Of a DNA stretch of 46,543 nt, positions 1,612 to 39,202 are shown piece by piece. Where the stretch lies: positions 1 through 46,543 of the forward strand of contig PLQC01000154.1 in the NCBI GenBank assembly GCA_003159675.1, written 5' to 3'. How positions within the stretch are numbered: the stretch's first letter is position 1; every line of letters begins with the position of its first letter. Position numbers and translations under genes: made by a program. The DNA comes from Limisphaerales bacterium (GTDB taxonomy: Bacteria; Verrucomicrobiota; Verrucomicrobiia; Limisphaerales; BOG-1460). The notes beneath the pieces are model-generated. The model did not search any database, had not been told where the DNA came from, and saw only the letters and a program-made list of their open reading frames with translations.

Positions 1612-1708
1612 GTTCCGAATCCAGCACTTGACAGTGGCAGAATTTGTGGGAATCTTTGTGCTGAATTCGGCACAGAGTCGAATCCTAGAGAAAGGCGTTT
1701 TTATGTTC

Positions 1709-2014: not shown

Positions 2015-2026
2015 TTGCTGGAATGA

Positions 2027-2684: not shown

Positions 2685-3960
2685 TCAGGGGGACCCAGCC
2701 TCCGGATTCTGTTTAGAGGGAGGGGATGCAATCTGGGCGCGCAGCTTTTGCAGTTCGGCCAGAAGTTTCTCCTGTTCTCCTGCGGATAAGGTTGCGCCCT
2801 TCGTTTCAGACGCTGCCGGCGCGACAAGTTTAGCGAGCTCTGCGCTGATGTAAGCTGCGTCGTTCCCGCCGAAAACCTCGGTGTAGGTGTTCAGGATCAG
2901 TTTGCCGCCGTCGTTATGCCCCTGCCACTTGGCAATGAGCTTGATGTCAATCTTCGCCTGCCAGAGCCGCCGGATGAGATAGGCCCGGATGCTCCGTTGC
3001 GAAAAGGCCGGGTAGCCCCAGGCGCGAGCAGGCATTCTGTAACGCTTTCCGAGCGTCCTGGATGCTGAAAAGCGGGGCATCGGTGGCCGGTGGGACAGTG
3101 TGTTTTGAACGGAGCCTCTGCAGGAACGGTTGCAGGTCTGGATAGATCGGGGGGAAGAAAAGCTCCTTGGTCTTGCGACGCCGGACGCAAAGCTCCCCTT
3201 TTTCCCAATTCACATCCCCCCACTTGAGGGAGCTGACCTCGGCCTGTCCGAGACCTGCCAGCCCCATGAATTCGATGAAGTCCGCGCTCTCCTCGGCTTG
3301 GGCATTCCGCTTTTCCGCTCGAATGCTCTCAACGATGGCGTGGAACTGCTCGTCGGTCGGCACCAGTCGCTTCGGCTTCTCGGGGCGTTTCCAGCTCTTC
3401 TGGAGGCGGTAAAACGGGGATTCAGCGATGATGCGGTCGTTGACGGCCAAGTCAAAAAGCTGTTTAAGGAGCAAAGTCACACGGTCATAGGAGCTGTTCT
3501 TGAGGTTCGGCTCCTGCTTGGCGAGCCATTCGTCGATCATCGAGGGCCGGATGCGTGAGACCTGAATGTCGGTGCCATGCGCCCAATCCTCCCGGAGCAT
3601 CTTGAGAATCCAGCGCTCGGTTTTTATGGTCTTCTCCGCCTTGCCCTGGCGGGTCTTCTCAAACCTTTCAATGAGCTGGGCGAGAGTGGTCTTCTCTGCC
3701 GCCGAATCCACCTTGTCAAGATTGCCAACCCAGGTCTTGAATCGGCGCTCCCCTATTTTGCGGTCGGTGGTGTCGAGGGAGTGGTCTTTCGACTTGCCAG
3801 CGATCTTTTTACTTCCATAGTAGATGCCGTTGATCGAATGACGATAGAGCCCTGGAAAATTTGGAATCTTTCCGAGCAACTGCCGCGTGCTGCGGCGGGG
3901 TGCTTGCCTCTCGTCGGCCACTCCCAAAATATAGGGGGAACAAGACTTTCGATTTTCCAC
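2685..3960 (-). pseudogene. tyrosine recombinase / integrase, frameshifted
   Basis: Two overlapping minus-strand frames together spell one phage-type integrase of about 420 residues. The first (3960 to about 3010) has the N-terminal SAM-like DNA-binding part and the start of the catalytic domain (FMGLAGLGQAEVSSLKWGDV). The second (about 3010 to 2685) has the C-terminal motifs: FSQRSIRAYLIR (second Arg box), WQGHNDGGK (Gly-His) and ILNTYTEVF (nucleophilic Tyr). The switch lies near 3005-3016, after SRLGLP. The usual first catalytic Arg (GLR-x-x-E) is GLGQAE here, which I recall as a verrucomicrobial variant but which may also mark decay. It lies 34 bp from tRNA-Val, the typical target of such enzymes. 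A sequencing error at the shift cannot be excluded. Confidence 0.82.
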
Positions 3961-3994
3961 AGATTCATTACAACTCTCTGTGGATAAGTGGTTA

Positions 3995-4070
3995 GGGCGC
4001 TTGGCGCAGTGGTTAGCGCGTCTCGTTTACACCGAGTAGGTCGGGGGTTCGAGTCCCTCAGCGCCCACCA
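3995..4070 (+). tRNA. tRNA-Val (anticodon TAC), CCA encoded
   Basis: The acceptor stem GGGCGCT (3995-4001) pairs with AGCGCCC (4060-4066), followed by discriminator A and an encoded CCA. The D stem is GCGC/GCGC. The anticodon stem TCTCG/CGAGT (one mismatch at the outer pair) carries loop TTTACAC with anticodon TAC at 4028-4030. The T arm is GGGGG-TTCGAGT-CCCTC. All parts are intact, so the gene is probably functional. It lies between the broken integrase and the left end of the Mu-like element, 14 bp from the latter. Confidence 0.95.
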
Positions 4071-4084
4071 CTTTCATCCGTTGC

Positions 4085-4109
4085 TGAGTCTTGGCGGATA
4101 ATCTTAACG
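4085..4109 (+). repeat. left terminal inverted repeat of the Mu-like element
   Basis: TG at 4085-4086, ten variable bases, then GATAATCTTAACG at 4097-4109. The same spacing and the same 13 bases occur inverted at the right end. It is probably the outermost transposase-binding site (L1). It begins 14 bp after the CCA of tRNA-Val. Confidence 0.85.
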
Positions 4110-4448
4110 CTGATGGCGAAACAAGGCGAATCGGTCCTAATAATGCCGAATGTCAGGCACTTGCGCCTTGGAAACAGGCCAATTTTGGAGGGTGCAGTTT
4201 AACGCTGTTTTGAGGCATCACCAGTTTGATCGGCGAAGATGTCCGACCGCAAGTGGCTGCCATTTCAACATTGGACATGCAAAACCGTTAAGATTATCAA
4301 AACTCGCGGGAATGCGTGCGATTCACGCTTTTCGCCCTTTCGTGGCATGTTTTGGATACCCGGTTGAAGTTACCTACCTACTTTTTTGACCCGATTCGCT
4401 TGGCGAAATGACCCCTTTAAGCGCCCGTCGAAGACCGGTTAAGACCAC
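4110..4448. other. left-end non-coding region of the Mu-like element
   Basis: There is no convincing gene here. The stretch contains an inverted internal copy of the end core at 4286-4298 and weaker relatives: TTTAACGCTG at 4199-4208 resembles CTTAACGCTG just inside the left end, and GTTAAGACCAC near 4439-4449 resembles the inverted core. Mu and Tn7 ends also hold several transposase sites, so this is probably a transposition-end array. Confidence 0.5.
4286..4298 (-). repeat. internal copy of the transposase end core
   Basis: CGTTAAGATTATC is the exact reverse complement of the 13-bp core at the left end (4097-4109) and identical on the plus strand to the right-end core (16885-16897). It lies about 190 bp inside the left end in opposite orientation to the terminal site. 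It may be a second transposase site or an enhancer/operator-like site. Confidence 0.7.
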
Positions 4449-4481
4449 AAAAAAGCCGGCCAGTTTACAGCCTGGCCGGCT
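4449..4481 (-). terminator. Rho-independent terminator of the leftward operon
   Basis: A perfect 10-bp stem AGCCGGCCAG / CTGGCCGGCT with an 8-base loop is followed, on the minus strand, by a run of six T (4449-4454 as A on the plus strand). It lies 46 bp after the stop of the 102-residue protein and closes the leftward regulatory operon of the element. Confidence 0.9.
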
Positions 4482-4527
4482 CGGCTCATGTCTCGCGCTC
4501 ACCCGCGAGTCTCCTGAGCAAACCCGG

Positions 4528-4836
4528 TTAATTGTTCAGATGTTGTCCAGCCGGAGCGAGAATTTCTGCGAGGCTGATCGCTACGTGCCCCCCTTTCATA
4601 AATGCCTTCAGCCTCAGCCGGGCGACCGTCTTTTCCAATAGTCCGGCCGCGTCCAGCAGTTCTTCAGTGTCTAAGTCGAAAGCAGCCGTCTCGACTTCCG
4701 GGTCCTCACAGGTGGTATCGAACAGGTTCAAGGACGCTGTTCCATCCGCCCCTTTTTCCCCGCTGTGACTTTTAGGGACTTGTGCACCCTGCTTTTTCGA
4801 TGTATTTGAGTGATTGATCCGACGTTGGTTTTTCAT
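4528..4836 (-). CDS. hypothetical protein, 102 aa
   Basis: I do not recognise a family. The first 35 residues are polar and basic (KNQRRINHSNTSKKQGAQVP), the middle is acidic (TTCEDPEVETAAFDLDTEEL), and the last 40 form probable amphipathic helices (LLDAAGLLEKTVARLRLKAF). There is no signal peptide or membrane segment. It is the last gene before a strong terminator on the same strand and follows a 56-residue protein and the element's repressor, so it belongs to the regulatory operon. Its acidic/basic composition and small size would suit a DNA-mimic or accessory regulator, but that is only a guess. Confidence 0.6.
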   Translation of the reverse strand: MKNQRRINHSNTSKKQGAQVPKSHSGEKGADGTASLNLFDTTCEDPEVETAAFDLDTEELLDAAGLLEKTVARLRLKAFMKGGHVAISLAEILAPAGQHLNN

Positions 4837-4901
4837 GTGTATCGTGATTTCCTTTGTTGGGTCGCTTTGCCCTGGTCGCGCTTCTACGCGACTGGGGTCT
4901 T

Positions 4902-5072
4902 TCAGGCGGCGGCGCGCCGCATGATCTCATTTTCGAGCACGCCTTGGATGAATTCAAATGCCGTGCATCCAACCTCCGAAGCCAGGCGCCGCAGCGTCTG
5001 GACGGTTTTGGGGGAGAGTTCAACACCGCAGGTGACTTCGGGGCTGGGGTACTTCCCCTCCGTGCAAAGCAT
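4902..5072 (-). CDS. small protein, 56 aa, possible ribbon-helix-helix or antitoxin-like
   Basis: The frame from ATG 5072 to TGA 4902 encodes 56 residues. The core KTVQTLRRLASEVGCTAFEF followed by IQGVLENEIMRR looks like two helices after a short strand (EVTCGVELS), the layout of ribbon-helix-helix DNA-binding proteins. A stop codon lies just upstream in frame, so ATG 5072 is the only good start. It lies 65 bp upstream of the 102-residue gene, in the same operon. The fold assignment is tentative. Confidence 0.5.
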   Translation of the reverse strand: MLCTEGKYPSPEVTCGVELSPKTVQTLRRLASEVGCTAFEFIQGVLENEIMRRAAA

Positions 5073-5081
5073 AATTGTCTT

Positions 5082-5220
5082 TCATTCGGGTCTTTGTGCC
5101 TCGGTCGCGTTCTCGCGCGTCCGGGGCGTTTTGTTTTTCATTGTTGACGCCCGTCAGCTCGACCCAGTGAAGCATTTGAAGCGTCGTTTCACCGCCTGGC
5201 GACAGGCCCGGCGGTGTTTT
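5082..5220 (-). pseudogene. remnant of a second double-HTH regulator (C-terminal end)
   Basis: In one minus-strand frame just after the stop of the Asp/Gly-rich gene the sequence reads GGETTLQMLHWVELTGVNN and continues to a stop at 5082. This resembles the C-terminus of the element's repressor, SGETALRLARWVELQGRKS. There is no start codon, so it looks like the tail of a paralogous regulator left by duplication or recombination. The match is short and could be partly chance. Confidence 0.4.
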
Positions 5221-5511
5221 TCAGCCGTCGCCGCCGCCACTGCAGTAACCAAGGCCGCTGCCATCCCCACTGCCTTCGCCGGCGCCCTCCGAGCTGCCGT
5301 CCCCCGTCCCGTCGCCGGCCCCATTAGCTCCATCTCCGACCCCAGAACCATAGGAGTCTCCGTAAAGGTAACCTGACCCGTCCCCAAACCCCGCCCCCAG
5401 GGCATCTGCGTACGAGTCCCCGTCTCCCGTGCCGTCGGAAAAAGCCGAGCCCGCGCCCCTGCCGTCTAAAGTCACCACGCTCGCCTCCACTTCCGGGTTA
5501 AGGGATTTCAT
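5221..5511 (-). CDS. Asp/Gly/Ser-rich low-complexity protein, 96 aa
   Basis: After about 20 ordinary residues (MKSLNPEVEASVVTLDGRG) the protein is almost only G, D, S, A, with occasional Y and E: GYLYGDSYGSGVGDGANGAG and similar runs to the end. The repeat is roughly two residues long (GD/GS/GA). Its ATG overlaps the TGA of the repressor gene (ATGA at 5508-5511), which indicates translational coupling. The composition resembles calcium-binding RTX-like or disordered condensate-forming tails, but there is no GGxGxDxUx repeat, signal peptide or membrane segment. The role is unknown. GC-rich simple sequence can give chance frames; the coupling and the native-looking N-terminus argue for a real gene. 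Confidence 0.55.
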   Translation of the reverse strand: MKSLNPEVEASVVTLDGRGAGSAFSDGTGDGDSYADALGAGFGDGSGYLYGDSYGSGVGDGANGAGDGTGDGSSEGAGEGSGDGSGLGYCSGGGDG

Positions 5512-6365
5512 TTGGATTTCCGCCCCTGCAGCTCAACCCAGCGAGCCAAACGGAGCGCGGTTTCGCCAGACGGCATGTATTTGCCGGCCAGCCATTCACT
5601 GACCCGAGGTTGCGGAACGCCCAAGTCTGCAGCAAGCCGGGCCTTCATCCCGCGCGCACTGACCAAAAGGCGCACATCGGCCAGGACTTTCTGCAGCGTG
5701 ATCTTGCGCATCTCGGATTTCATATCGGCAGAACTCATACGGACTTCAGAACTATCTGTCAACAGTTCTTTTGCATCCTCGGAACTTCCGCTGTCCACCT
5801 TGGATGCATCAACAAACTCGCGTATTTTTCTTCGCTGGCTCATGTCCCGCTTCATCGCTCGAAGAAGCTGATCTATGGCTTTTTCCTCACGAAGAACCTG
5901 GGCGCGGTTCTTCGCAGTATGCTTGAGGCCTGCGAGTCTTTCTGTAGCTGCCGAAAGCGCCCCCCGCAGCTCCACCCATTGATCCCGTGCGTCCGCAACG
6001 AGCTTGTTGAAATCTTCACCGAGGGTTTCCTCAAACCACGCGCCGAACGGAAATGGACCGGGAGACACTTTGTTAAGCAGGCCAGCGACAGCAGAATCGC
6101 CATGATATTTCGGAGAGCCCACCCCTCTTGCAAGCCACAGGGGACTAACGTTGAGCATGAGGCAAAAGCGCAGAGCCACATCCGCCTTCAATGGCACCCG
6201 CGCCGCCTCAATGTTCGCGACTTGATTTCGGGTTATGCCCAAGCGCAGGCCCAGGCCCGCTTGTTCGAATCCCTCAAAACGTCGAATTGCTGCCAGGCGC
6301 CGGCAAATTTCCCTTTCGCCGGCGGGCAGCGGTTTGAACCGCGAAGATCCCAACTCGCTCTGCAC
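5508..6365 (-). CDS. element repressor-like protein with two XRE helix-turn-helix domains
   Basis: This 285-residue protein has an N-terminal XRE domain at about 22-75 (RFEGFEQAGLGLRLGITRNQ then ANIEAARVPLKADVALRFCL) and a second HTH at about 240-278 (KARLAADLGVPQPRVSEWLA then SGETALRLARWVEL). A charged helical linker joins them (about 115-210). It is divergent from the rightward operon, with about 80 bp between starts, the position of the repressor in transposable phages. It probably binds the intergenic region and holds capsid and transposition genes silent. Two DNA-binding domains in one chain could bridge two operators. Confidence 0.75.
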   Translation of the reverse strand: MQSELGSSRFKPLPAGEREICRRLAAIRRFEGFEQAGLGLRLGITRNQVANIEAARVPLKADVALRFCLMLNVSPLWLARGVGSPKYHGDSAVAGLLNKVSPGPFPFGAWFEETLGEDFNKLVADARDQWVELRGALSAATERLAGLKHTAKNRAQVLREEKAIDQLLRAMKRDMSQRRKIREFVDASKVDSGSSEDAKELLTDSSEVRMSSADMKSEMRKITLQKVLADVRLLVSARGMKARLAADLGVPQPRVSEWLAGKYMPSGETALRLARWVELQGRKSK

Positions 6366-6444
6366 GGTGAATTCTAAACAGACGCCGGGGCAAAAATAAA
6401 GCTTGCAGCGTAAATCATGGCGTGTTACAGAATGGATAGCTGTT

Positions 6445-7110
6445 ATGCCAGATTCGAAGCCAGTAATCGAAAAATCAAGGCGCGGTCGCCCGACGCGGTT
6501 CCCACAAATAGTCGCGGACGCTAGGGATCTGGCCGTGTCACGTCAGACCCTTTGGAATTTACTTTCCGGCCGGCAAAAGAACCCCAAACTGGCCTCACGC
6601 TATTTCGCCCTCAAGGCCGCACAGGAGGGCGCAAAGGACGGCGCGCACAATACGGTGGCAGCCGGCCGTGACGCAAGACAGAGGGTGTTCTGCGAAAACC
6701 AAAAGTCCGTTTTCAGGAAAGAACGCACGGCCGACCTCGCCGCGATCCAAAACCACCTGGAGGAATATCAGGCAATTTTGGAAAAGCTCGGTTTACAAAT
6801 CCTTGTGTTGCGATTCGACGGCGACGCCGCAAGTCCCGTCTGGAAAGAGCCGGCCCTGGGAGAAAGTCTCGGCGCTGAACTTGACGCCTGCGGCGCGGGA
6901 AGTTTCGACAGTTCGCACCTTGCGTTTGGCTCGTTTTTTTGCTACTTCCACGTGGCCCACCTTGCTAAAAGCCTCGGCGCGCTGAAGAATTCGCTTCAAT
7001 CGCGTGGCTTACTGGACAACGTCCGAATTTTTCACATAGAAATCGAATCAGGCTGGCGCGAATATTTTCCGGCCACCGGGCAGATCTTTTCCCCGGCCGA
7101 TTCAGACTAA
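6445..7110 (+). CDS. putative HTH DNA-binding protein, first gene of rightward operon
   Basis: The N-terminal part contains RRGRPTRFPQIVADARDLAV then SRQTLWNLLSGRQKNPKLAS, an XRE/Cro-like helix-turn-helix. The remaining 150 residues have no family I recognise; a helical stretch (AAIQNHLEEYQAILEKLGL) precedes a mixed alpha/beta region. An upstream TTG at 6403 is also in frame; I prefer ATG 6445 because GGA lies about ten bases before it. Being the first gene opposite the repressor, it is a candidate early regulator analogous in position to Ner of Mu. Confidence 0.6.
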   Translation: MPDSKPVIEKSRRGRPTRFPQIVADARDLAVSRQTLWNLLSGRQKNPKLASRYFALKAAQEGAKDGAHNTVAAGRDARQRVFCENQKSVFRKERTADLAAIQNHLEEYQAILEKLGLQILVLRFDGDAASPVWKEPALGESLGAELDACGAGSFDSSHLAFGSFFCYFHVAHLAKSLGALKNSLQSRGLLDNVRIFHIEIESGWREYFPATGQIFSPADSD

Positions 7111-7115
7111 GATTC

Positions 7116-7373
7116 ATGAGCACCTTCAATTTTGCCCAATCGCACAACCAGCCGCGAGCCCTCGTACGTGGGGACGGGTTCGCGGATTATGCCCCACAAC
7201 GCGCGCTTGAGCCCGTCCCCAGCAGCCCAACAAACCAGCTCCCGCAGGCCCATGGTCGCGCATCAGCCTCGGGAGACAATGATGCGCTCAAAAGGTTGCA
7301 GCTCAAAAACGCCCGGCGCTTTGCGCCTGGCGACACCAAACCGTTGCCTGAGCAGCGACAATTCCCCACATAA
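7116..7373 (+). CDS. hypothetical protein, 85 aa
   Basis: The frame begins 5 bases after the stop of the previous gene and ends 4 bases before the capsid start, filling the gap exactly. The protein is polar, rich in Pro, Arg, Ala and Gln (QPRALVRGDGFADYAPQRAL), with no membrane segment and no known family. Spacing is the main evidence; an alternative frame also runs open here as a 5' extension of the capsid gene. Confidence 0.4.
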   Translation: MSTFNFAQSHNQPRALVRGDGFADYAPQRALEPVPSSPTNQLPQAHGRASASGDNDALKRLQLKNARRFAPGDTKPLPEQRQFPT

Positions 7374-7377
7374 TCAA

Positions 7378-8829
7378 ATGAGATTTAAGTTTAAGTACCC
7401 GTCCCTATTGGCAACGCTGGGCAGCCTGGCGTTGGTTTTTGTTCTGTGCACACTCGGCCTTCTTTCGTTGCCGGGAGCCTTCCTGCTTCTGGCCGCCGCG
7501 CAACTGCTCGCCCTTTCCCAGCAGTCCCCTCGGCGTGGCCTTTGTCTCCTGGCTACACTCACCCAGGCTCAGGTTGAAGAGTTCGAAAATATCTGCGAGA
7601 GCCTACGGGTTCAGTTGACCGACTCAAAGGCCGACGCAACGGCCATGCGCAGGGAACTCGACGAAGTAAGAGGGAATCAGAGAAAGATGCAAAAAAACGT
7701 GGCCTTTGGCAGCGTTGGCCGCTCCGGCGTGGTTTGGATCGGAAACAAACCCTTTGTGACCGACGATTGCGCCACCGCGTTAACGAGCGTCTTTGTGCTC
7801 GAAACCGACCGGCTCGGCGATGGCGCGTTATCTAACCTGGTGAAGGATGCCAGTGCTCGCGAAGGGGTCCTAAATAAGGCAAAAACCTTCCTTGGACTGG
7901 AACAAAAGACTGCGATGACCACAACGCAAATCCCCGTCCCGACGATCTACGTGCCGCAGATCATCGAGCTGGTGTTTGCTTACGGCCAGGCCCGGCAATT
8001 CGCCACCGTGTTCCCGCTTGGAGCAGGGACCGTCAAACTGCCCATGTTGGCAGCCGGCGAAGACAACTTCGGCTACCTCGGTGCTGGAACGGCCGGCATG
8101 TCGCAGAGCGTACCGGAACGCCGGGTCACGGCAAATCTCGTCACATTTACTGCGAACAAAGCAGGTGGCATGATCAGAATACCTACGGAGCTCGAGGAAG
8201 ACACGTTCGTGCCGTTAGGTCAGTTCCTGGCGAGATACATCGCGCGCCAGCTCGCCCTCCTGGAGGACAAATCCATGTTCATGGCAGACGGAACGTCCAC
8301 CTACGCGAGTATCGTGGGCATCCAGAAGTACTGCCAGACGAACACCGCTTACCTCACGGTCCTGGGATCGACCAAGACCCATCCGAGTGACGCGGTTATC
8401 GCGGATTTCCGGTCCATCAGGCCCCTGGTGAACGCGGCGGTCCTCGCAAACATGAACATCGGCGGCAAGAGCGCCGCGGCATATTTCATGCATCCCTCGA
8501 TGGATGCGTTGCTGGTTACGTTCAACACCATCAACAATCCTCTCATCTACCAGCACCTGCCGGACGGCAGCGCGTCGCTTGACGGTTACCCGATCCACTG
8601 GATCGGTGTGAGCCAGGCCTTCTCGTCCGCTGCTGCTCCCAGCACGCCCCTGGCCTTCTTCGGAGACCTTTCCTACTGGTACCTCGGTGAGCGCGGTGCG
8701 CCGCGTGTCGAGGTGAGCAAGGAAGTGTTCTTCGCCACCGACGAACTCGCGATGCGCGCCCTTGAACGCATCGACGTCGAGGCAATGGCGGTTGACGCCA
8801 TGTCCACGCTGCAGACGGCTGCAGCCTAA
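7378..8829 (+). CDS. HK97-type phage major capsid protein with N-terminal hydrophobic segment
   Basis: From ATG 7378 the protein has 483 residues. Residues 8-46 are strongly hydrophobic (LLATLGSLALVFVLCTLGLL and LPGAFLLLAAAQLLAL), probably one or two membrane helices. Residues about 58-100 form a coiled coil (LTQAQVEEFENICESLRVQL) like the delta/scaffold domain of HK97 capsids. From about 180 on, the HK97 fold is clear: TIYVPQIIELVFAYGQARQF, ARYIARQLALLEDKSMFMAD, MHPSMDALL, FGDLSYWYLGERG and TDELAMRALERID near the end. The family forms icosahedral shells. A frame open upstream to 7132 would add 82 residues of atypical composition; I reject it. No portal or protease gene adjoins it. Confidence 0.88.
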   Translation: MRFKFKYPSLLATLGSLALVFVLCTLGLLSLPGAFLLLAAAQLLALSQQSPRRGLCLLATLTQAQVEEFENICESLRVQLTDSKADATAMRRELDEVRGNQRKMQKNVAFGSVGRSGVVWIGNKPFVTDDCATALTSVFVLETDRLGDGALSNLVKDASAREGVLNKAKTFLGLEQKTAMTTTQIPVPTIYVPQIIELVFAYGQARQFATVFPLGAGTVKLPMLAAGEDNFGYLGAGTAGMSQSVPERRVTANLVTFTANKAGGMIRIPTELEEDTFVPLGQFLARYIARQLALLEDKSMFMADGTSTYASIVGIQKYCQTNTAYLTVLGSTKTHPSDAVIADFRSIRPLVNAAVLANMNIGGKSAAAYFMHPSMDALLVTFNTINNPLIYQHLPDGSASLDGYPIHWIGVSQAFSSAAAPSTPLAFFGDLSYWYLGERGAPRVEVSKEVFFATDELAMRALERIDVEAMAVDAMSTLQTAAA

Positions 8830-8887
8830 AAGTTTCGGGAGCCTGGTTATTCCTCGCTCCCGATGTTTGAGTAATAGGTTCATATTG

Positions 8888-8923
8888 GGGGGGGCGCGGT
8901 TGGTTGCCGCGCTCCCTATTTTT
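8888..8923 (+). terminator. terminator after the capsid gene
   Basis: GGGGCGCGG (8891-8899), a 7-base loop and CCGCGCTCCC (8907-8916) form a GC stem, followed by TATTTTT (8917-8923). Another 8-bp stem TCGGGAGC / GCTCCCGA (8835-8863) lies just before it. Together they probably end or attenuate the capsid transcript and lower expression of the genes after it. Confidence 0.75.
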
Positions 8924-8928
8924 GAAAT

Positions 8929-9639
8929 ATGGGTCACGACCAAAATAATTTCGGCGACTCCAGCCAGAGCCGCACCGCAAGAGCAGGTGGGGCACCGTTG
9001 GGGAAGCCGGGCGCCAGGTTGCTAGACCCATTCCTGGCGCCTCATTTAAGGTGGCAAGCGGAACGTGCAAAAACTTTGCACAAGCTTTGTACGAGAATCG
9101 AAGCTCGCGTTGACGATGGGCAACCGCTGCTAAAAGCTGTTCGGCGGGCGACCCTACGCCGCAACGGCAAACCATATCACTGCGATCCACAACGCCGCTG
9201 GGCACTGAGCCCCACGACCCTCTATCGCCTGTGGTATTGCTGGCGTCGAGGCGGCGAGATTCCGTCAGCATTCAAGCTCCACTACGCAGGAGGCAGGAAG
9301 AAAACGCTGACACTGGCCGTCCTGAGCCGCTTCATAGAGTTCTGCTCCACGTTTCAATTTCACAGCCAGGCCAAGGCGTTCTCGGCGTTTGCAAAAGTTG
9401 AAGATAGGCACTGGCGCCACATGCGACCGGGGCGCCCATCGCTCGCGCATCGATTTTCCAATGTCCCGCGATACTTCACGGGATTGCAATTCAGAGCGCT
9501 GCAGGCGCAACTCAAAGCCATCGCTGCTCAGCAAAAGGAGCTTGGTCGCTTGCGGCTCCTTTTCTGCGCCGACCAGGCGCGCCGATTCCCGGCGCCGGCG
9601 GCGCGCCGGCGCCGAAACGGCCCCGGCTTCGACATATGA
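8929..9639 (+). CDS. hypothetical protein of the element, 236 aa, basic
   Basis: I do not recognise a named family. The centre reads RWALSPTTLYRLWYCWRRGG then EIPSAFKLHY, a helix-turn-helix-like stretch that I recall from proteins of similar verrucomicrobial elements. The C-terminus is very basic (PAARRRRNGPGF). No signal or membrane segment is present. The start ATG 8929 has a poor ribosome site and follows a terminator. Its stop overlaps the next start (ATGATAA at 9636-9642), so the two are coupled. It is probably DNA-binding; a role in transposition or regulation is a guess. Confidence 0.6.
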   Translation: MGHDQNNFGDSSQSRTARAGGAPLGKPGARLLDPFLAPHLRWQAERAKTLHKLCTRIEARVDDGQPLLKAVRRATLRRNGKPYHCDPQRRWALSPTTLYRLWYCWRRGGEIPSAFKLHYAGGRKKTLTLAVLSRFIEFCSTFQFHSQAKAFSAFAKVEDRHWRHMRPGRPSLAHRFSNVPRYFTGLQFRALQAQLKAIAAQQKELGRLRLLFCADQARRFPAPAARRRRNGPGFDI

Positions 9640-10280
9640 TAACCAGCCTACCTGAGCGAACAGGAAAACGGACCTTGCCAGTCAGCGACCGGACGATCCT
9701 GGTGTCCGTAGAATCCGTGAGGATATCATGGGGCGTTGAAGCCGAGGTAGTGCTGGCTTGGGCAGATGCCGGGATGCTGCAGTGGGTGTTCGATGTATCC
9801 AGCGCTCGGTTCCCCGCGAACAAGGACCACAATCGTGCGCTCAGATTTTGGGGCCCGGAAGTCATCGATCCACACTCTGTTGCGAAGCTCAACCTTGCGC
9901 AGGTAATTGCTTCAATCCTGCCGCCATCACGTAATTGGTTTCGTGGTGGCGAGGTAATGAGGATATTGCTCATAAGTCGGCCCCATGTGGCGGCCGTGCG
10001 CTTCGAATGCCGCGGCGTCATCGAGAAACACAGCACCCAGATCGGGCGCGATGACCTGGCTTCGTATCTTCGCCGGCGCTGGATCGGGGGCGGCGTCCCT
10101 GAAAGGGCCACTTCGCGCCAGGACGCCCCAGGACGCACTTTACCCTACAAGGCTATCCACACCCCCACCGCTGTCAAAGACCTCTCCACCGGTCCTTTAA
10201 TTCTCATTAACGGTATCGTGGCGCAGGATCAAACCCCGGTGCCCCAGAAAACCGGAAACCCAAAAACCGCCCTATCATGA
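9636..10280 (+). CDS. hypothetical protein of the element, 214 aa
   Basis: No family recognised. The chain is mixed alpha/beta: VSVESVRISWGVEAEVVLAW, FPANKDHNRALRFWGPEVID, LAQVIASILPPSRNWFRGGE, then AAVRFECRGVIEKHS. The C-terminal 60 residues are Pro/Thr-rich and probably flexible. Its ATG overlaps the stop of the preceding gene and its stop overlaps the next ATG (ATGA at 10277-10280), so it is in a tightly coupled set with the beta-rich protein and the baseplate-hub-like protein. The position between capsid and tail-like genes suggests a structural or assembly protein. Confidence 0.65.
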   Translation: MITSLPERTGKRTLPVSDRTILVSVESVRISWGVEAEVVLAWADAGMLQWVFDVSSARFPANKDHNRALRFWGPEVIDPHSVAKLNLAQVIASILPPSRNWFRGGEVMRILLISRPHVAAVRFECRGVIEKHSTQIGRDDLASYLRRRWIGGGVPERATSRQDAPGRTLPYKAIHTPTAVKDLSTGPLILINGIVAQDQTPVPQKTGNPKTALS

Positions 10281-10726
10281 GCGAAGACCGGCAATTCAAG
10301 ATTCAGATCTCCGCTGACGCAAGCTCACTTGTCTTTGAGTTTCCCGGCGCTTCGACGAGTCAGGCGGCAACAACGGGCGACTTCCGCTCTCATCAAACCG
10401 GCAACTGGAGCGCCACCGTCACCTGGGAATACTATAATGGCTCGGCGTGGGTCACACCCGCTCCGAGCGCACCCGCGGGCACTGGCACCATCACCATTCA
10501 AAGCGGACATGCTGTGACTGTGGATGGGGCCGTGAACATCTCCGGCACCCTTGTGAACTCGGGAAGCATTACCCCGGCCAGCATCCTGACCTTCACCTCG
10601 GGCGGACAATACCAGCATAACTTCACCACAACGGCGGCGCTGGATCGGAGTAGGGAATTACTGATAGGACTATTTAGCCCACAAATGCCAGCACGCGCAA
10701 AGTCACCGCGCGGAACACCTGAGTAA
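10277..10726 (+). CDS. beta-rich surface or fibre-like protein, probably truncated
   Basis: Residues about 35-120 have the strand-turn pattern of G8-like/right-handed beta-helix proteins: GNWSATVTWEYYNGSAWVTP, GTGTITIQSGHAVTVDGAVN, SGTLVNSGSITPASILTFTS, GGQYQHNFTTT. In relatives I remember, the chain continues for hundreds of residues after YQH. Here it ends about 30 residues later in an atypical basic tail (LDRSRELLIGLFSPQMPARA), while another frame just before the stop reads NASTRKVTARNT and then stops. An internal deletion or frameshift near 10635-10690 is likely. Translationally coupled to the gene before it. Confidence 0.55.
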   Translation: MSEDRQFKIQISADASSLVFEFPGASTSQAATTGDFRSHQTGNWSATVTWEYYNGSAWVTPAPSAPAGTGTITIQSGHAVTVDGAVNISGTLVNSGSITPASILTFTSGGQYQHNFTTTAALDRSRELLIGLFSPQMPARAKSPRGTPE

Positions 10727-10728
10727 TT

Positions 10729-12831
10729 ATGGCCACAAACATCTGGACACTCGCTTGCGCCGGTATCGAGAAATCCTTCGCCGATTGGGGCTTCGATCAG
10801 GATTCAGCCGACGGCATGTTCAGCAACATGCTGGTGGACGTCCTTTCGCTGTGCGTGCCCGGAGCGACCGTTCAGAGCGATCCAATCTTCGCTTTCGAGG
10901 CGCAGGTGATCGTCAGGCGCGGGCGCACTGGCAGCGGCACTTCCTACACCGGCGGGGCCATTGAGTTTCAAGGAAAACGGCTCCTCCACGTCCTGGACGG
11001 CCGGCCGGAATTCGAGGGCATTGTCTATCAGTTCGGCGGCCCATGGTATGACCTGGACCAGACTCCTTATTTGCAGGACGTCAAGGTGTATGGCGGGGAC
11101 CCGGACGCTCTCCTGGATCTGTGGCAGAGTGAGGTGATTCTGTTCTTCGACCGATCCTCGACGTGGGCGAGTTACATCAACATGACCAATGGTCAGCAAA
11201 TCACAGCCAGCCTGAACAGTCTCCTGACGCAATATGCGGCGCAGGGCCTGCCGGCGCCTTTCCAGATCGGCGAGATCGATCCCGCCGTCGCTCTTCCCAC
11301 TTACCAGGTGAAGGACATCAAATGTTCCGAGGCCATCATCCACTGCATGAGGTCCTCGCCGGACTGCAAGGTGTGGTTTGATTATACGACCACGCCGCCG
11401 ACGTTCAACGCAACGAAGCAGGGGAACTGCGTTGCGGTCTCTGTCGCCATCGGGGCCGGCACTTCCCTGGAGAGCATCAAGCTCACCCCGCGTTACGATC
11501 TACAGCCCAGCAGCGTGACACTCTTTTTCCAGCAGACCAATTCCATCAGCGGTCAAAACTGGCTCAGCACAGTGGTGCAGCAGGCCAACTCTTCCGGTTC
11601 GACCACCACTGAAAACGTCCCCACTCATCCTGCAGGCGGCCTTCGCGGAGTCGTGCAAACGATCGACATGCAGGGCATCACGGGCACGGTCGCAACCGGA
11701 GCGCTTGTTTGCGTGACGGTGGCCAATACTGTCGCATTCTGGTCCCGGTTCCTGCCGCAATGGGGCAGCCCGCGCATTCGCATTCCAGATCTAGAGCCGG
11801 GACCCAACCCTGGCGCTACGGTTGGCTTCAAAATCCTCGATGTCATGAGCGCCGTGCTTGACGACAATTCCGGCACCGTGGTGGACCTTAGCCTCTATAC
11901 CAAGGTGCTCACGGATGGGTCTTTTGCGCCCTGGATGACCCTCACGAGCGGGACGCCCGTCATTGCAGTCCGGGCGCTGGTCAAGACCCGCATTTCTTAT
12001 GATCAATCGGATGCGGACACCGGTGGACGCCTTCTTAAGCGGCAACCGTCGCAAGAGATCATGATTCGCGTCACACTCACCAGCGGCGTGACGGGCAACT
12101 ATTCGTCCTACCTGTCCGCCTTCCCCGCTGAACCCATTCCAACCGGCCTGGCGACCAACCTGTACAATGCCATGGCCACGTTGCAATACCAGGGCACCGT
12201 CAGCATCATCGAGCAAGAATGTTCCGGCAGCCTCGGCATGGGCGATGTGCTCAACCTCACCGGCGGCCGCACCGAATGGGCCACGATGAAGGCGATGATC
12301 CAGCAGGTGCACAAACTCTATGGCAAGGGCCGGACCGAAGTCACCATCGGCCCGGCCGCTCACTTGAGCGCCGCCGATCTCACCCAAATATTCCTGGTGA
12401 ACCGCTACCGCCGCAACTGGAACAATCCACTGGTCCAGTCCACAGCCCAAAACACGGCGGGCAACAACCTGGTCCTGGGCCAAAATGCCCCGAAAGAGAA
12501 TTCGACCCAGGGCCTGGGTGAACCCAGCCAGACCACCACGTCCTTCGATAACGGCGACGGCACGAGAACGATCATCCGCAAAGACGCGCAGAATCAGCAG
12601 ATCACTTTGTTCGTCGTTGACGCGAGCGGAGCTCTCGTCACATCGAAACCCAGTTTCAGCATGGCAACGGGCGACATCCCGGCGCCACCAGGGGACGGCA
12701 CCGCGCTGGCGATGAAAGCGCGCGAATATCCAATCTGCGTTATGGTCGGAAGCCCCCCCACTCCCACCACGCAATACGTCATGCTGATGGGCACGACGAC
12801 ATACCCGACCTCGGGGAATCCCTACGCATGA
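10729..12831 (+). CDS. phage tail / baseplate-hub-like structural protein, 700 aa
   Basis: The long beta-rich protein resembles phage tail-hub proteins (gpD/gp44-like) in layout: an N-terminal strand-rich part (WQSEVILFFDRSST around 130), a block with SLESIKLTPRYDLQPSSVTL near 250, GATVGFKILDVMSAVLDDNS near 370, and an Asn/Thr/Gly-rich C-terminal 150 residues. I cannot name an exact family. It starts 2 bases after the previous stop and its TGA overlaps the ATG of the transposase (12828-12831), linking structural and transposition genes in one transcript. No sheath, tube or tape-measure gene accompanies it. Confidence 0.6.
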   Translation: MATNIWTLACAGIEKSFADWGFDQDSADGMFSNMLVDVLSLCVPGATVQSDPIFAFEAQVIVRRGRTGSGTSYTGGAIEFQGKRLLHVLDGRPEFEGIVYQFGGPWYDLDQTPYLQDVKVYGGDPDALLDLWQSEVILFFDRSSTWASYINMTNGQQITASLNSLLTQYAAQGLPAPFQIGEIDPAVALPTYQVKDIKCSEAIIHCMRSSPDCKVWFDYTTTPPTFNATKQGNCVAVSVAIGAGTSLESIKLTPRYDLQPSSVTLFFQQTNSISGQNWLSTVVQQANSSGSTTTENVPTHPAGGLRGVVQTIDMQGITGTVATGALVCVTVANTVAFWSRFLPQWGSPRIRIPDLEPGPNPGATVGFKILDVMSAVLDDNSGTVVDLSLYTKVLTDGSFAPWMTLTSGTPVIAVRALVKTRISYDQSDADTGGRLLKRQPSQEIMIRVTLTSGVTGNYSSYLSAFPAEPIPTGLATNLYNAMATLQYQGTVSIIEQECSGSLGMGDVLNLTGGRTEWATMKAMIQQVHKLYGKGRTEVTIGPAAHLSAADLTQIFLVNRYRRNWNNPLVQSTAQNTAGNNLVLGQNAPKENSTQGLGEPSQTTTSFDNGDGTRTIIRKDAQNQQITLFVVDASGALVTSKPSFSMATGDIPAPPGDGTALAMKAREYPICVMVGSPPTPTTQYVMLMGTTTYPTSGNPYA

Positions 12832-15224
12832 ACCAAAACCTTTACACGACTTCGCAGATTGCCCGCACGCTTGGGATGAACCGCAGGGCGGTCCGGCGCG
12901 TGCTCGCCAATGTCCCGGCCGCCGGGAAGGTGATAGTCTCCGGATCTCCGGCCAATGCATGGACCGTCTGCGCCCTGCCGGCATCCCTGCAGGAATTGCT
13001 TGCAGCGGAAGCCAAGCGGCTCGGCTATCAGTCCGCAGAGCAACTCTTGCGCGCGCCCGCTAAACGCTGGGAATCCGCCGTCCCGTTTTCGGAAGTCGCG
13101 CAGCACTGCCTGGACAAGGCTGCAAAGCTGCAGCGCGCGCTGGCGCGAGTCTTGAGCCTTCGAAACGATCTCACGATCTCACCCGCCGAACGTGAACGGA
13201 TCGGGCTTGCCGATTACCAGACGGAATTTGGGCACGCTGTGAGCGCGCGTTACCTGCGTGAATTAGTCAAGCGCACCCTGGATCGGGACGGGGGCGCCGG
13301 CGAGCTTGGGAGACTTGATATTTACCTGGATGACAACCTGGCGCGCAAACACGCGGCCGGCCGCGGCGTTCCACTTTCGGCGAATTCGGATTTTCGAGAG
13401 CTGCAGGACGTGGTTGCCAGCTTCACGAATCCCGCCGCACCAACTCCAGGAGAAAAGCAATACCTCTGGCTGCGAGCTTTCGATCTGCGCGAAGAGCTGA
13501 CCGCAGCCGGCAGGAAGCCGAAAAAGGTCCACAACTCCCTGCTCAAGTTTTTGTGGCGTTGCGCGCCATTCCTTGCGGCCAGTCCCGACGCGCTGCGCCA
13601 GGCTTTCAATTGGAAGCACGCCCGATGGATCGCGAACGATCAAAACGCCGCCTCTCTGGTGGACGGCCGCAAAGACCACTCCGGGTTTCACCGCGCGCCG
13701 GAATTCACGGCAGCCGACCGCGATGCGCTCATTGCGCACGCGGTTCTGAACTGCGACGGCCGGGTTAGCCAGGCCTGGCGCGAACTGAGCGAGCGCGGCG
13801 CGCTCAGCGAAGCGTTGCTTGGCCACTATCTGAGCAACCCGGCTTCCAAGAGCCATTGCCCCGCGCGCATCCGCGACGCGGTCAAATATGAAGTAGCGAT
13901 GATGGAAGACATCCACCACGGCCCGCGCCAGGACAAACTGAACGGCGCGCACTTGAGCCGCGATTGGAGCAACGTTGCCTCGATGGACTGGCTTTGCGCC
14001 GACGATGCAACCCTGGAAGTATATTTCTACGCGCCGGACGGCAAGGGCTGGTTCACACTGATGCGCGGGCAATTCCTGGTGATGATCGACGTGCGCTCGC
14101 TGCGCGTGCTCGGCTTCGCTCTGCAGCCGGAACGGAACTACAACGCGCACACGATCAGGACTCTCATCACCCGCGTGTGCGATGAACACGGGTTGCCTCG
14201 GAAAGGTTTCTACTTTGAGCGCGGCATTTGGAAAAACTCACGCCTGCTCAAAGGCGACCCGCAGGCAGACCCGCTGTCGTTTGGCGAAACCGAGCTTGGC
14301 CTGCGCTCGCTTGGATTGCGGTTTGTTCACTCAAAGCTCCCGCGCTCCAAGCCCGTCGAGCGCGTCATCGGCGCCATCCAGGATTTGTGCGAGGGCGAGC
14401 CTGGCTATGTGGGACCGGATGAAATGCATGAGACGTTCGAGCGCGTGAAAAAGGCGAAGCTGCAGGTTGACGCGCGCAAGGTGCATCCCTCAGACCATTT
14501 TTACAGTCTCGACGAATGGGTGGCGCGCTTGGAGGAAGTTTGCGACCTCTACAACTCCACCGTGCAAAACGGCAAGATGACGTGCGACCTGTCCCCCGAA
14601 GCCGCCTTCGCGAAATTCACCCGCACCGCCGACCCGGTTATCAAATTGCCAGCGAGCTGCCGTTATCTGCTCGCGCACCACAAGCGCCCACTGAAAGTCA
14701 CCAGCAACGGCATCACGCTCCGCTTCGGCAAGCAGGTTTTCAACTATCGCAACGAAGAGACCGGGCGCCTGCGCGAACAGACCGTGCTCGCCTGGTTCAA
14801 TCCCGACATGCCGGAAATCCTCACTGTTACCGATATGAACCGCGAAAACGCCTTTTGCGTCGAACGCTCGCAGGACGTGCCGGCCATGGATGCGCCGGAG
14901 GAATTGCTGGGCCAGGAAATGGCGCGAATCGAAGCGCATCAATCTTACGCGCGCGTCCGCTATCGGATGCTCAAGTCGAAATTCGCAACACCGTTCCGGC
15001 GCGTTATCGCGGACGCGGCAACTGCCGAACTTGGGGCACGGATCGAGGCCGAACAGTCGCGCGTCAGCGCTGAGCGCAGCAGTCAACAGAGGCAGCAGAC
15101 AAAAGCGCGGAAGATTTCCAGCCGGCTTGGGATGATCGTTGGCGGCGGCAGGCCGCTCCGGCCTGATCAGGTGGAAGACGGCGAGTGGTTGAATTCATTC
15201 CTGAACAAAAAGGTCAAGCCATGA
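12828..15224 (+). CDS. MuA-like DDE transposase
   Basis: The 798-residue protein begins with a helix-turn-helix (TTSQIARTLGMNRRAVRRVL, residues 7-26) like the MuA/Tn7 end-binding domains. The catalytic rve/RNase-H core starts near 385: WLCADDATLEVYFY gives Asp392/393, then a strand LVMIDVRSLRVLGFAL; FYFERGIWKN places Glu464 where MuA has the second Asp; KPVERVIGAIQDL supplies Glu511. A MuA-type beta-barrel and a basic C-terminal helix (residues 730-798) follow; in MuA that tail contacts MuB. It is followed by a MuB-like ATPase with ATGA overlap. It should bind the GATAATCTTAACG end sites and join strand ends to target DNA. Position at the far right, after capsid genes, differs from Mu. Confidence 0.88.
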   Translation: MNQNLYTTSQIARTLGMNRRAVRRVLANVPAAGKVIVSGSPANAWTVCALPASLQELLAAEAKRLGYQSAEQLLRAPAKRWESAVPFSEVAQHCLDKAAKLQRALARVLSLRNDLTISPAERERIGLADYQTEFGHAVSARYLRELVKRTLDRDGGAGELGRLDIYLDDNLARKHAAGRGVPLSANSDFRELQDVVASFTNPAAPTPGEKQYLWLRAFDLREELTAAGRKPKKVHNSLLKFLWRCAPFLAASPDALRQAFNWKHARWIANDQNAASLVDGRKDHSGFHRAPEFTAADRDALIAHAVLNCDGRVSQAWRELSERGALSEALLGHYLSNPASKSHCPARIRDAVKYEVAMMEDIHHGPRQDKLNGAHLSRDWSNVASMDWLCADDATLEVYFYAPDGKGWFTLMRGQFLVMIDVRSLRVLGFALQPERNYNAHTIRTLITRVCDEHGLPRKGFYFERGIWKNSRLLKGDPQADPLSFGETELGLRSLGLRFVHSKLPRSKPVERVIGAIQDLCEGEPGYVGPDEMHETFERVKKAKLQVDARKVHPSDHFYSLDEWVARLEEVCDLYNSTVQNGKMTCDLSPEAAFAKFTRTADPVIKLPASCRYLLAHHKRPLKVTSNGITLRFGKQVFNYRNEETGRLREQTVLAWFNPDMPEILTVTDMNRENAFCVERSQDVPAMDAPEELLGQEMARIEAHQSYARVRYRMLKSKFATPFRRVIADAATAELGARIEAEQSRVSAERSSQQRQQTKARKISSRLGMIVGGGRPLRPDQVEDGEWLNSFLNKKVKP

Positions 15225-16786
15225 GCAATACCCGTATCGCGGAGTCCGGTCAGCCGTTGCGCCAAGAGCGCTGGTGTTCGAGCGAAGAGATTGAACAGGG
15301 TTTGCTGGCGAATATCGTGGCCCGGCGTTGCTCCGTACTGGACACCCCCAAAGAGCGTGAATTGATTTGGGCGCTTCAACATTTCAGTCACCAGCCTGGC
15401 GGCCTGCGGCGGGTTGCAAGTGACCTGGTCGCGATGTTCCCCGGCAGGCTCGGCACCAAATCAATGCAGCGATTCGGAATGAAGCCGGGCCGGGTCTATA
15501 ACGTCAATCAAATCAAGTTGATTCGCAAGGAACTCGGACCGGATGAACCGAGTTTGCCCTTGCGCGGTGATGTAGCCTTTGACTTTTCCGAGTTCGCGGG
15601 CAGCCGCGACACGGCGGATGATCGCCCGACTTCCTATAGGCTTGAAGACTTTTGGAATGGGGAAAAAATCACCACGGAAACGCTGCCGGGTTTTCTGGAA
15701 GAGCTTTGCCTGAACCCAGCTCTACCCGTCGCAGATTGTCATCCTTGGTTTTTCCAGGATTTGATCGCGTCTCTTTGGGAGTATCTCGACAGCCGGGCGG
15801 GGAGTCTCCATAGAACCGCCGTTGTCACGGAGATTGGGACGATCATCTATGACTCCCTGGATTACGTGGCGCAGTCCAAATGCCTTGTGCTCATCGAAGG
15901 CGCTGCCCGCACGGGCAAAACTTTTGCAGCGAAGCAGTATGTTGCTGAGCGGCCTGGCCGCGCGCGTTACGTCCAAGTCCCCTCGACAAATGACGATATT
16001 GGCTTCTTCAGGGCAATCGCGAAAGCCCTTGGGGTTTCCTGCGGCCGCTCCTGGAAAGCGGTCCAATTGCGCCAGCGAATCGAGGACGTGTTGCAGACCG
16101 GCGACTTGATCCTGGTGATGGACGAGGCCCATTTTTGCTTTCCCGTCAGTGATTGCCGGCACAGTCTGCCCGGCCGGGTCAATTGGGTGCTCACAGCGTT
16201 GGTGAACCAGGGCGTCGGAGTCGCTTTCTTTTCCACCCCGCAGTTCACCGCGTCGCAAGAGGCCGTCAAAAAACGAACGCATTGGGCCTCCGAGCAACTG
16301 ATTGGCCGCATCACTCATTACGAGCGTTTGCCGGAGATCTTGCCTAAGAAAGACTTGGCCAAGGTGGCAAGATCGCTCTTGCCTGAGGGAGACTCGGATT
16401 CAATCCAGGCGCTGGCGAAGTACGCGAACACCTCGGCAAAATATCTGGCCGGGATCGAATCAGCGGTCAGGCGGGCCAGATACCTTGCCCAGAAGGACGG
16501 CCGGGAAAAGGTTACGGCATCGGATATTCAGTGCGCGATCAGGCAGGGTGTCATCCCATCGGACACCGCCCTGGCGCAAGCTTTGGCTGAGGCCCAGGCC
16601 AAAGGGCGCGGGAAGCGGTTTAAGGGCGCGTTAACTGCCCCTCAAAGCCCGATTTCAGCCACCGAGGAAAGCGACGCGCCGGCAGCCAGCGAACCAATTT
16701 GTTCAGACCGAAATAAGCGTGGCATCCTGGATATTCGGAGCCTACTCCGTGCCCCCCAGGCCGAGCCTGAGCCAGTGACGACCTGA
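15221..16786 (+). CDS. MuB/TnsC-like AAA+ ATPase, transposition target selector
   Basis: The start at ATG 15221 overlaps the transposase stop; a frame open from 15185 is less likely. The 521-residue protein has an N-terminal helical region of about 200 residues, then an AAA+ module: Walker A GAARTGKT (227-234), Walker B LILVMDEAHF (Asp301-Glu302), and an arginine-rich sensor region (QLIGRITHYERLPEIL). A C-terminal lid helix bundle follows (AKYANTSAKYLAGIESAVRR). In Mu and Tn7 such ATPases coat DNA, choose the target and activate the transposase. The last 70 residues are polar and probably flexible. It is the last gene before the right end. Confidence 0.87.
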   Translation: MSNTRIAESGQPLRQERWCSSEEIEQGLLANIVARRCSVLDTPKERELIWALQHFSHQPGGLRRVASDLVAMFPGRLGTKSMQRFGMKPGRVYNVNQIKLIRKELGPDEPSLPLRGDVAFDFSEFAGSRDTADDRPTSYRLEDFWNGEKITTETLPGFLEELCLNPALPVADCHPWFFQDLIASLWEYLDSRAGSLHRTAVVTEIGTIIYDSLDYVAQSKCLVLIEGAARTGKTFAAKQYVAERPGRARYVQVPSTNDDIGFFRAIAKALGVSCGRSWKAVQLRQRIEDVLQTGDLILVMDEAHFCFPVSDCRHSLPGRVNWVLTALVNQGVGVAFFSTPQFTASQEAVKKRTHWASEQLIGRITHYERLPEILPKKDLAKVARSLLPEGDSDSIQALAKYANTSAKYLAGIESAVRRARYLAQKDGREKVTASDIQCAIRQGVIPSDTALAQALAEAQAKGRGKRFKGALTAPQSPISATEESDAPAASEPICSDRNKRGILDIRSLLRAPQAEPEPVTT

Positions 16787-16884
16787 CCGAAAAGCGAGCG
16801 AGTTTCGCGCACACCCGCCAAAAGGGTGCGCGATGTTTCTGTACAGGCGCTACAGGCACTTTGGAACTCGGAACTCCTTAAAAA
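16787..16884. other. right-end non-coding region of the Mu-like element
   Basis: No gene. It holds the stem CGCGCACACCC / GGGTGCGCG (16806-16832, two-base bulge), which may act as the operon terminator though no T run follows, and a tandem TACAGGCGC / TACAGGCAC at 16842-16859. Only one clear end core follows, at 16885. Confidence 0.5.
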
Positions 16885-16909
16885 CGTTAAGATTATCGGC
16901 GCGTTTACA
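16885..16909 (-). repeat. right terminal inverted repeat of the Mu-like element
   Basis: CGTTAAGATTATC (16885-16897) followed by 12 bases ending in CA at 16908-16909. Read inward on the minus strand it is TG-N10-GATAATCTTAACG, the same form and spacing as the left end. It is the probable R1 site and transposon terminus. Confidence 0.85.
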
Positions 16910-16980
16910 TTGCCAGTGATCTCGAGGAGATACATGGAGCCGGTCGTCGTCCGCGTGGCTCCGAAAAAATGAATGCGCAT
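16910..16980 (-). pseudogene. 5' fragment of MBL-fold metallo-hydrolase / RNA exonuclease gene
   Basis: From ATG 16980 the minus strand reads MRIHFFGATRTTTGSMYLLE, then ITGN, a close match to the conserved start of MBL-fold proteins of the CPSF/RNase J-like group (xHFxGAxxTVTGSxYLLE). The frame runs into the right end of the Mu-like element after 23-24 codons. The remaining 400 or so residues, with the HxHxDH metal site, are not at the other side of the element: the left flank is tRNA-Val. The gene is therefore dead, and insertion was accompanied or preceded by a rearrangement. Confidence 0.72.
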
Positions 16981-17114
16981 GGGGAAAAGGATGTGGGTGG
17001 GAAGGTGAAAGTCGAGAAGGGAGTGCGGGATGGGCACGGGGAAAGCCCCCCGTTGAGCACCCGCAAAAAACGCGATGGACAATTCATCGGAACCCGCTAC
17101 AGTGCAGTCCCATT

Positions 17115-17402: not shown

Positions 17403-17406
17403 ACTT

Positions 17407-17793: not shown

Positions 17794-17799
17794 ATTTCC

Positions 17800-18210: not shown

Positions 18211-18262
18211 AGCGGGCGAGCTTAATTCATCGGGCCAAAATCGAAAGCAGGAAGTGGCCGGG

Positions 18263-39198: not shown

Positions 39199-39202
39199 GA
39201 TA

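Follow-up and report, generated by a model that had tools for sequence, protein, structure and literature searches.

The window examined here, a stretch of 46,543 nucleotides from a member of the Limisphaerales, contains a complete element of 12,825 bp with TG...CA ends that belongs to an undescribed family of Mu-type transposons found mostly in Verrucomicrobiota. The clearest new property of this family is its homing to tRNA genes. Comparison of its members strongly suggests that a MuA-type transposase (TnpA) and a MuB-type ATPase (TnpB) place the element at a constant distance downstream of tRNA or tmRNA genes and leave the RNA gene intact, that it is governed by a repressor and a divergent operon, and that the slot between repressor and transposase holds genes for conflict with phages, in most cases one or a few siphophage head or tail genes that selection maintains. 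We tentatively read the element as a satellite-like phage parasite, a possible though not yet probable interpretation, in which its virion proteins would join the assembly of an infecting siphophage and the element would be packaged and transferred.

Ends, genomic setting and genes of the element

The window makes up one entire contig of a 4.1-Mb assembly with 182 contigs. The element is present there once, and a search with the end motif (two mismatches allowed) revealed neither a second copy nor a segmented phage in this genome. The window has exactly three copies of this motif, GATAATCTTAACG, as compared to 0.35 copies expected even with two mismatches. An earlier, sequence-only reading of this DNA had described a complete element with TG-N10-GATAATCTTAACG ends and this holds, with the motif at both ends and TTGC on either flank (Table 1). 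To that description we add the duplication of 4 bp, the tRNA-Val gene at a distance of 14 bp and the homing to tRNA genes. The inverted third copy is likely a second transposase-binding site, and the three copies are arranged as would be expected for such sites. No close relative that could show the empty target site was found; in order-level relatives the genes of the right flank are kept, but the tRNA gene is not beside them.

Table 1. Features of the element and its target site (positions in the window)
Feature	Position	Strand	Evidence or remark
tRNA-Val (tac)	3995..4070	+	target gene, intact; element starts 14 bp past its 3' end
Target-site duplication TTGC, left copy	4081..4084	.	
Left end, TG-N10-GATAATCTTAACG	4085..4109	+	motif 12 bp inward of TG at 4085
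End motif copy 2, inverted	4286..4298	-	within left end
Small ORF in repressor operon, 102 aa	4528..4836	-	no Pfam or PHROG family above cut-off
Repressor, two HTH regions, 285 aa	5508..6365	-	Pfam HTH_3 7.7e-13; PHROG transcriptional repressor 4.7e-14
ORF with Ner-like HTH at its start	6403..7110	+	HTH seen by eye, no family confirmation; divergent from repressor
HK97-type major capsid protein, 483 aa, N-terminal hydrophobic region	7378..8829	+	Pfam, PHROG, siphophage homologues
HTH-like accessory protein	8929..9639	+	homologues in G372, G248 and the L043/G167 cluster; no family match
ORF, 214 aa	9636..10280	+	ATGA overlap on both sides; no family match
ORF, 149 aa	10277..10726	+	upstream ATGA overlap; no family match
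Tail-tip/hub-type protein, 700 aa	10729..12831	+	position of homologues in siphophage contigs
TnpA, MuA-type transposase, 798 aa	12828..15224	+	profile, AlphaFold model, alignment
TnpB, MuB-type AAA ATPase	15221..16786	+	N-terminal extension of about 190 aa (MSNTR...QERWCSS)
Right end, TG-N10-GATAATCTTAACG on minus strand	16885..16909	-	motif 12 bp inward of CA at 16909
Target-site duplication TTGC, right copy	16910..16913	.	

The layout of open reading frames bears out the proposed single repressor operon on the minus strand, divergent from one long rightward operon. The gene order is repressor, Ner-like ORF, capsid gene, three small ORFs, hub-type gene, tnpA and tnpB, and the five gene boundaries from 8929 on consist of four ATGA overlaps, including that of the hub stop with the TnpA start, and one near contact. 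The HTH-like accessory protein recurs close to TnpA in several elements. The claim of an HK97-type capsid gene is borne out by matches to Pfam Phage_capsid (4.6e-27) and to the PHROG major head protein (1.1e-22); its start is likely at 7378 rather than at 7132, where the longest ORF begins. The hub-like gene is a mixed case. Neither profile nor structure backs the assignment: the protein has no profile match, an AlphaFold model from two sequences only reached a pLDDT of 29 and was left unused, and a five-sequence hub profile yielded nothing significant in PDB or PHROGs. Its homologues in siphophage contigs (L138, L143, L150), however, lie directly 3' of tape-measure or tape-measure-like genes, and this position supports a tail-tip or hub type. 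As had been noticed from the sequence, no terminase, portal, protease, tail tube, sheath or lysis protein is found among the ten largest element proteins by Pfam and PHROG, and the same databases gave no tyrosine or serine integrase and no satellite replication genes among them.

On the other side of the tRNA-Val gene, a tyrosine-integrase-like gene at 2685-3960 (minus strand) is split into the overlapping frames 2947-3960 and 2685-3080, and its end lies 35 bp away from the tRNA gene, on the 5' side of the latter; it is probably a broken integrase from another island. A second, different island is present in the same genome (G000:C22, about 34100-42032; L160 and L161) and comprises an integrase at a tRNA-like sequence, an HTH protein, a primase-like protein, a coiled-coil protein and a large terminase (PHROG 2, 1.2e-12). 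This island resembles a PICI-type satellite and could be a terminase source for the element.

TnpA and TnpB are relatives of MuA and MuB

TnpA has no significant Pfam match. A profile of 32 TnpA sequences nevertheless found the MuA core in PDB (7.5e-6), and the first structural match of the AlphaFold model (pLDDT 84) was the Mu transpososome (1.2e-13), in agreement with the MuA-like protein seen before. Residues D392, E464 and E511 are invariant across the 32 sequences. D392 aligns to the first catalytic aspartate of MuA in the profile-PDB alignment, and from its position in the motif E464 would stand in for the second catalytic aspartate of DDE enzymes. TnpB matches the PHROG DNA transposition protein (5.7e-16) and is closest in PDB to MuB (4e-9, as compared to 6.9e-5 for TnsC), as the sequence-only reading had it. 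No TniQ match indicating a TnsD/TniQ protein was obtained with Pfam among ten window proteins.

A family of small elements

TnpA relatives were found at about 30 loci in Verrucomicrobiota, all of them in small elements with varied cargo and none in a full phage. The earlier reading had considered that relatives might always sit in full phages of 30-40 kb, and none of those found does. At the level of the phylum, searches recovered TnpA in 11 of 388 genomes, at that of the class in 22 of 384 and at that of the order in 22 of 196, and a six-sequence profile found 16 loci in GTDB contigs. No full phage with a TnpA of this family was found in the genome searches, the INPHARED phage records or IMG/VR, where the scans used short patterns that distant relatives can escape. 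Siphophage contigs with a capsid or hub homologue likewise had no TnpA or TnpB in the stretch examined. L012 is the only TnpA contig in IMG/VR and shows full identity with L050 across 6.5 kb. Such cases bear on annotation, since a capsid gene together with a Mu-type transposase can make a contig pass for a phage.

Elements with both ends resolved measure 7-16 kb (7,250-15,603 bp; Table 2) and have target duplications of 4 bp, with one of 5 bp in G403. Small size and gene order recur although the transposases are only 25-53% identical. All named host records are Verrucomicrobiota or Kiritimatiellota with the sole exception of L057, where a repressor accompanies a truncated TnpA relative (31%); its assembly is labelled Gammaproteobacteria, which reflects either a wider host range or misbinning. 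In the literature searched, which covered few subscription journals and not bioRxiv, we found neither a Mu-type transposon that homes to tRNA genes nor a Mu-type satellite with tape-measure genes.

Table 2. Length, target and cargo of family members
Element	Length (bp)	RNA gene (proximal end)	Cargo
Window	12,825	Val (left)	capsid, hub-type
L043	12,184	no tRNA; no RNA gene by Rfam	tape measure alone
L048		Leu (left)	capsid, tape measure
L050			portal, protease, capsid; tape measure on other strand, left of repressor
L051	12,953	Ser (left)	capsid, tape measure
L052		Leu (left)	minimal: almost nothing besides TnpA and TnpB
L054	7,250	no tRNA; no RNA gene by Rfam	
L055		Leu (right)	
L056		Arg (left)	GajA/GajB (Gabija), IetA/IetS (IetAS), 1074-9333
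G013		Leu (left)	minimal: almost nothing besides TnpA and TnpB
G056		tmRNA (left)	
G119		no tRNA	Mu-type portal, tape measure
G167	15,110	Arg (left)	tape measure alone
G248		no tRNA	
G372			tape-measure-like protein, hub
G376	10,985	no tRNA; no RNA gene by Rfam	Mu-type portal
G403	10,179	Gly (left)	
G446	~11.5 kb	Val (left)	Mu-type protease, tape measure
G499		no tRNA	capsid, tape measure
G520		Val (left)	
G600		no tRNA	tape measure alone
G682	15,502	Val (left)	tape measure alone
G711	8,529	Gly (right)	
G714			Mu-type protease, tape measure
G718	15,603	no tRNA	capsid, tape measure
G724a	~12.8 kb	Arg (left)	capsid, tape measure
G724b		no tRNA	Mu-type protease, tape measure
G726		Val (left)	portal, protease, capsid; tape measure on other strand, left of repressor

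Homing to tRNA and tmRNA genes

In 16 elements one end lies 13-16 bp past the 3' end of an RNA gene (15 tRNA genes and one tmRNA gene), with the left end proximal in 14 and the right end in two. The distance from the element end to the T-loop sequence TTCRA is 36-39 bp, mostly 37, and is alike in tRNAs and tmRNA. By arithmetic, about 50 tRNA genes per 4 Mb give a probability of about 1/20,000 that a position falls into such a 4-bp zone by chance. The spacing is backed by matched ends and duplications of 4-5 bp in the window, L051, G167, G682, G403 and G711, and is less independent in G446, L048, L052, G013, G056, L056, L055, G520, G724a and G726 because the tRNA helped to locate the end. For L050, a left end at position 411 was rejected: 28 bp to its right there is a right end resembling the consensus, and the left end seems to have been rearranged, which is why this element was left out of the spacing counts. 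At nine elements no tRNA gene was found (Table 2).

All tRNA-flanked elements carry the N-terminal TnpB motif MSxTR...QERYxSS, with the region interrupted by NN in L055, as do two of the nine elements without a tRNA gene; the association has a Fisher p of 4e-4 when L055 is counted as lacking the motif, L050 as tRNA-flanked and kinship is ignored. The element of G403, which lies at a tRNA gene, combines a TnpA from a clade otherwise without tRNA targets with a motif-bearing TnpB. Together with the motif association, this combination points to TnpB as the probable target selector. The two minimal elements at tRNA genes, L052 and G013, hold little beyond TnpA and TnpB. In G696 and G650, two congeners of G726, the orthologous tRNA-Val sites are without an element end, and the right flank of the G726 element lies off its contig. 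At L201 (G650:C192, about 1430-1470) we observed a family-type left end, TGTGCCTTGGCGGATAAGTTGTCC, about 15 bp past a tRNA-Leu gene that is orthologous to the site used in G696; no TnpA was found in the G650 genome, and the end belongs to either a remnant or a TnpA-less element.

Cargo, selection and origin of the virion genes

The slot between repressor and transposase mostly contains one or a few virion genes in varying sets (Table 2), and their position in the operon appears to be of the early type. In L056, two complete defence systems fill the slot from the left end, behind tRNA-Arg, up to TnpA. Head and tail-core genes recur, while integrase, replication and lysis genes were not noticed as cargo. 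The tape measures of G446, G714 and G724b were called by homology to siphophage tail genes, PHROG giving no significant match; for G499 and G372 the call relies on weak matches and the character of the sequence. No terminase or small terminase was found in the elements checked, the terminases of three siphophages with hub homologues had no match in the element loci, and an unsystematic search noted no recognised packaging site. The reading frames of tape measure and TnpA overlap in G718 and G682, in the same ATGA manner as hub and TnpA in the window.

Several further loci deserve mention. In L123 (G446, 13380-18903) TnpA and TnpB are separated by a tape-measure-like gene. The IMG/VR contig L113 (8150 bp) has a repressor, small genes, tape measure and capsid in the order of the element family, and its capsid is 56% identical to that of the window; the contig stops short of any transposase. 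A RadC-like JAB-domain gene lies near the repressor in both sister elements (L050:4291-4947 and L120:8217-8858).

L050 and G726 are sister elements of one genus at different tRNA genes. In this single pair, which does not include the window's own genes, dN/dS is 0.19 for the portal, 0.20 for the protease, 0.23 for the capsid, 0.28 for the tape measure and 0.31 for TnpA, values indicating that all four virion genes are under purifying selection there. TnpA is 86% identical between the two and TnpB only 34%, which indicates that modules recombine. The window capsid, N-terminal hydrophobic region included, shares 51-59% identity with siphophage capsids and 33-38% with those of other elements, suggesting separate acquisitions from phages. 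With a capsid from siphophages unrelated to Mu, the element is best seen as a transposon that gained phage genes and not as a shrunken Mu. The element in the window has about one third of the length of the siphophage contigs with homologous genes (34-42 kb), a ratio also shown by SaPI or P4 to their helpers. No prophage sharing the window capsid was found in the same genome.

Possible roles of the virion genes

The sequence-only reading had offered three explanations: a phage-derived transposon with another use for its shell, a satellite and an internally deleted prophage. Deletion from a full-size Mu-like phage would account for the joint presence of MuA- and MuB-type proteins, repressor and virion genes. 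We reject it, and consider it very improbable, since small size is a family trait and the capsid is unrelated to Mu. Mu measures 37 kb; no full phage with TnpA was found (the short IMG/VR patterns may miss distant relatives), size and gene order persist at 25-53% transposase identity, the virion genes of the window are of non-Mu siphophage type and are sited, unlike in Mu, between repressor and transposase, and dN/dS in L050/G726 is 0.19-0.28. The part of the first explanation that stands is a transposon with phage genes. A domesticated shell or compartment, to which a capsid gene without portal or terminase might point, is the least probable reading of all: a shell standing on its own is unlikely given that the majority of relatives have no capsid gene, many of them having tape measure, portal or protease instead, and no cargo-loading enzyme was seen. 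That an ordinary transposon merely picked up neutral passengers from prophages is improbable as well. Cargo is swapped among elements and L052 and G013 carry almost only TnpA and TnpB, as such an origin would have it, but purifying selection in the one pair tested, frames overlapping TnpA and the recurrent restriction to head and tail-core genes speak against neutrality.

A satellite or other phage-related use remains the best of the original readings, since the virion genes are under purifying selection in a sister pair and are swapped among elements. If the element is such a parasite, siphophage infection or prophage induction would lift the repressor, virion proteins would be made early from the same operon as the transposase and would enter assembly together with the phage's own, the phage terminase would package the element DNA, and in a new cell the element would home to a tRNA gene; it would work in the way of a phage satellite but move by DDE transposition. 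In favour of this are the small elements with two ends, the lack of full phages with TnpA, virion cargo under purifying selection, overlapping frames, the defence cargo of L056, the one-third phage length and the tRNA homing. Against it stand the lack of a terminase or recognised packaging site in the elements checked, the incomplete and variable virion set, two minimal elements without any virion gene, the absence of a same-genome prophage with a shared capsid, and the fact that the data also fit pure interference. Under interference, the virion proteins would be competing subunits that spoil siphophage assembly and do not move the element. Such an anti-phage function, which we judge rather unlikely, fits Gabija and IetAS in the L056 slot, the early place of the virion genes in the operon and the frequent presence of a single essential head and/or tail gene, which could poison a virion but would not suffice to build one; moreover, satellites and prophages are known to block the assembly of tails (PMC11364771). 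However, the genes look full length and conserved as normal structural genes, whereas truncation is common among poisons, the blockers in the literature are dedicated inhibitors and not virion subunits, and transfer between cells is left unexplained. Hijacking and interference would share most predictions up to the content of the particles. More doubtful than the satellite reading as such is the wider proposal of a new satellite class, in which TnpA and TnpB alone would home to the T-loop end of tRNA or tmRNA genes, the TnpB N-terminus would be the selector and interchangeable genes would remodel or hijack siphophage virions.

These elements raise the question how a MuA/MuB-type machine without TnsD picks a defined target, for which G403 points to TnpB, and why mobile elements retain lone virion genes. 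Swapped, selected head and tail genes and defence systems in one slot link satellites, transposons and anti-phage defence, and tRNA homing may serve to direct DNA insertion to a safe site.

Comparison with known systems

By its machinery the element is a relative of Mu, but it is without the defining features of a Mu-like phage. TnpA fold and TnpB are nearest to MuA and MuB, and TG...CA ends with repeated inverted binding sites, a divergent repressor and a Ner-like operon start are shared. In contrast to Mu, family members of 7-16 kb have no packaging, tail tube or lysis genes, and the complete late operon of a Mu-like phage (~37 kb) is absent from the 12,825-bp element. Their virion genes derive from other phages and lie between repressor and transposase, with the transposase genes at the right end; they home to tRNA genes, whereas target choice of Mu is near-random, duplicate 4 bp instead of 5 bp, and have D-E-E in place of D-D-E at the active site.

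With phage satellites (PICIs, capsid-forming PICIs, P4, PICMIs) the family shares a size of 10-15 kb, a repressor-controlled operon, some virion genes and, in one member, defence cargo; the satellite trait of virion genes kept by selection is present in L050/G726 (dN/dS 0.19-0.28; one pair, not the window). It differs in using DDE transposition and not a tyrosine integrase, in the absence of visible primase or terminase genes, in its tape-measure and hub genes and in its incomplete and swapped head genes. Like this family, tycheposons are mobile, occur at tRNA genes and can include a few virion genes; they use tyrosine recombinases, unlike the MuA/MuB-type transposition with target duplications described here.

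With Tn7-like transposons and CASTs, which home to tRNA genes through TnsD (PMC10293859), the family has in common a DDE transposase with an AAA regulator and orientation-biased insertion downstream of tRNA genes, its own homing being site-specific and biased 14 to 2 towards left-proximal elements. It is set apart by a TnpB nearest to MuB and not TnsC, no TnsD/TniQ or Cas genes having been found. CyCAST inserts 30-33 nt behind tRNA-Leu (PMC10293859), whereas members of this family insert about 14 bp behind many different tRNA genes and a tmRNA gene.
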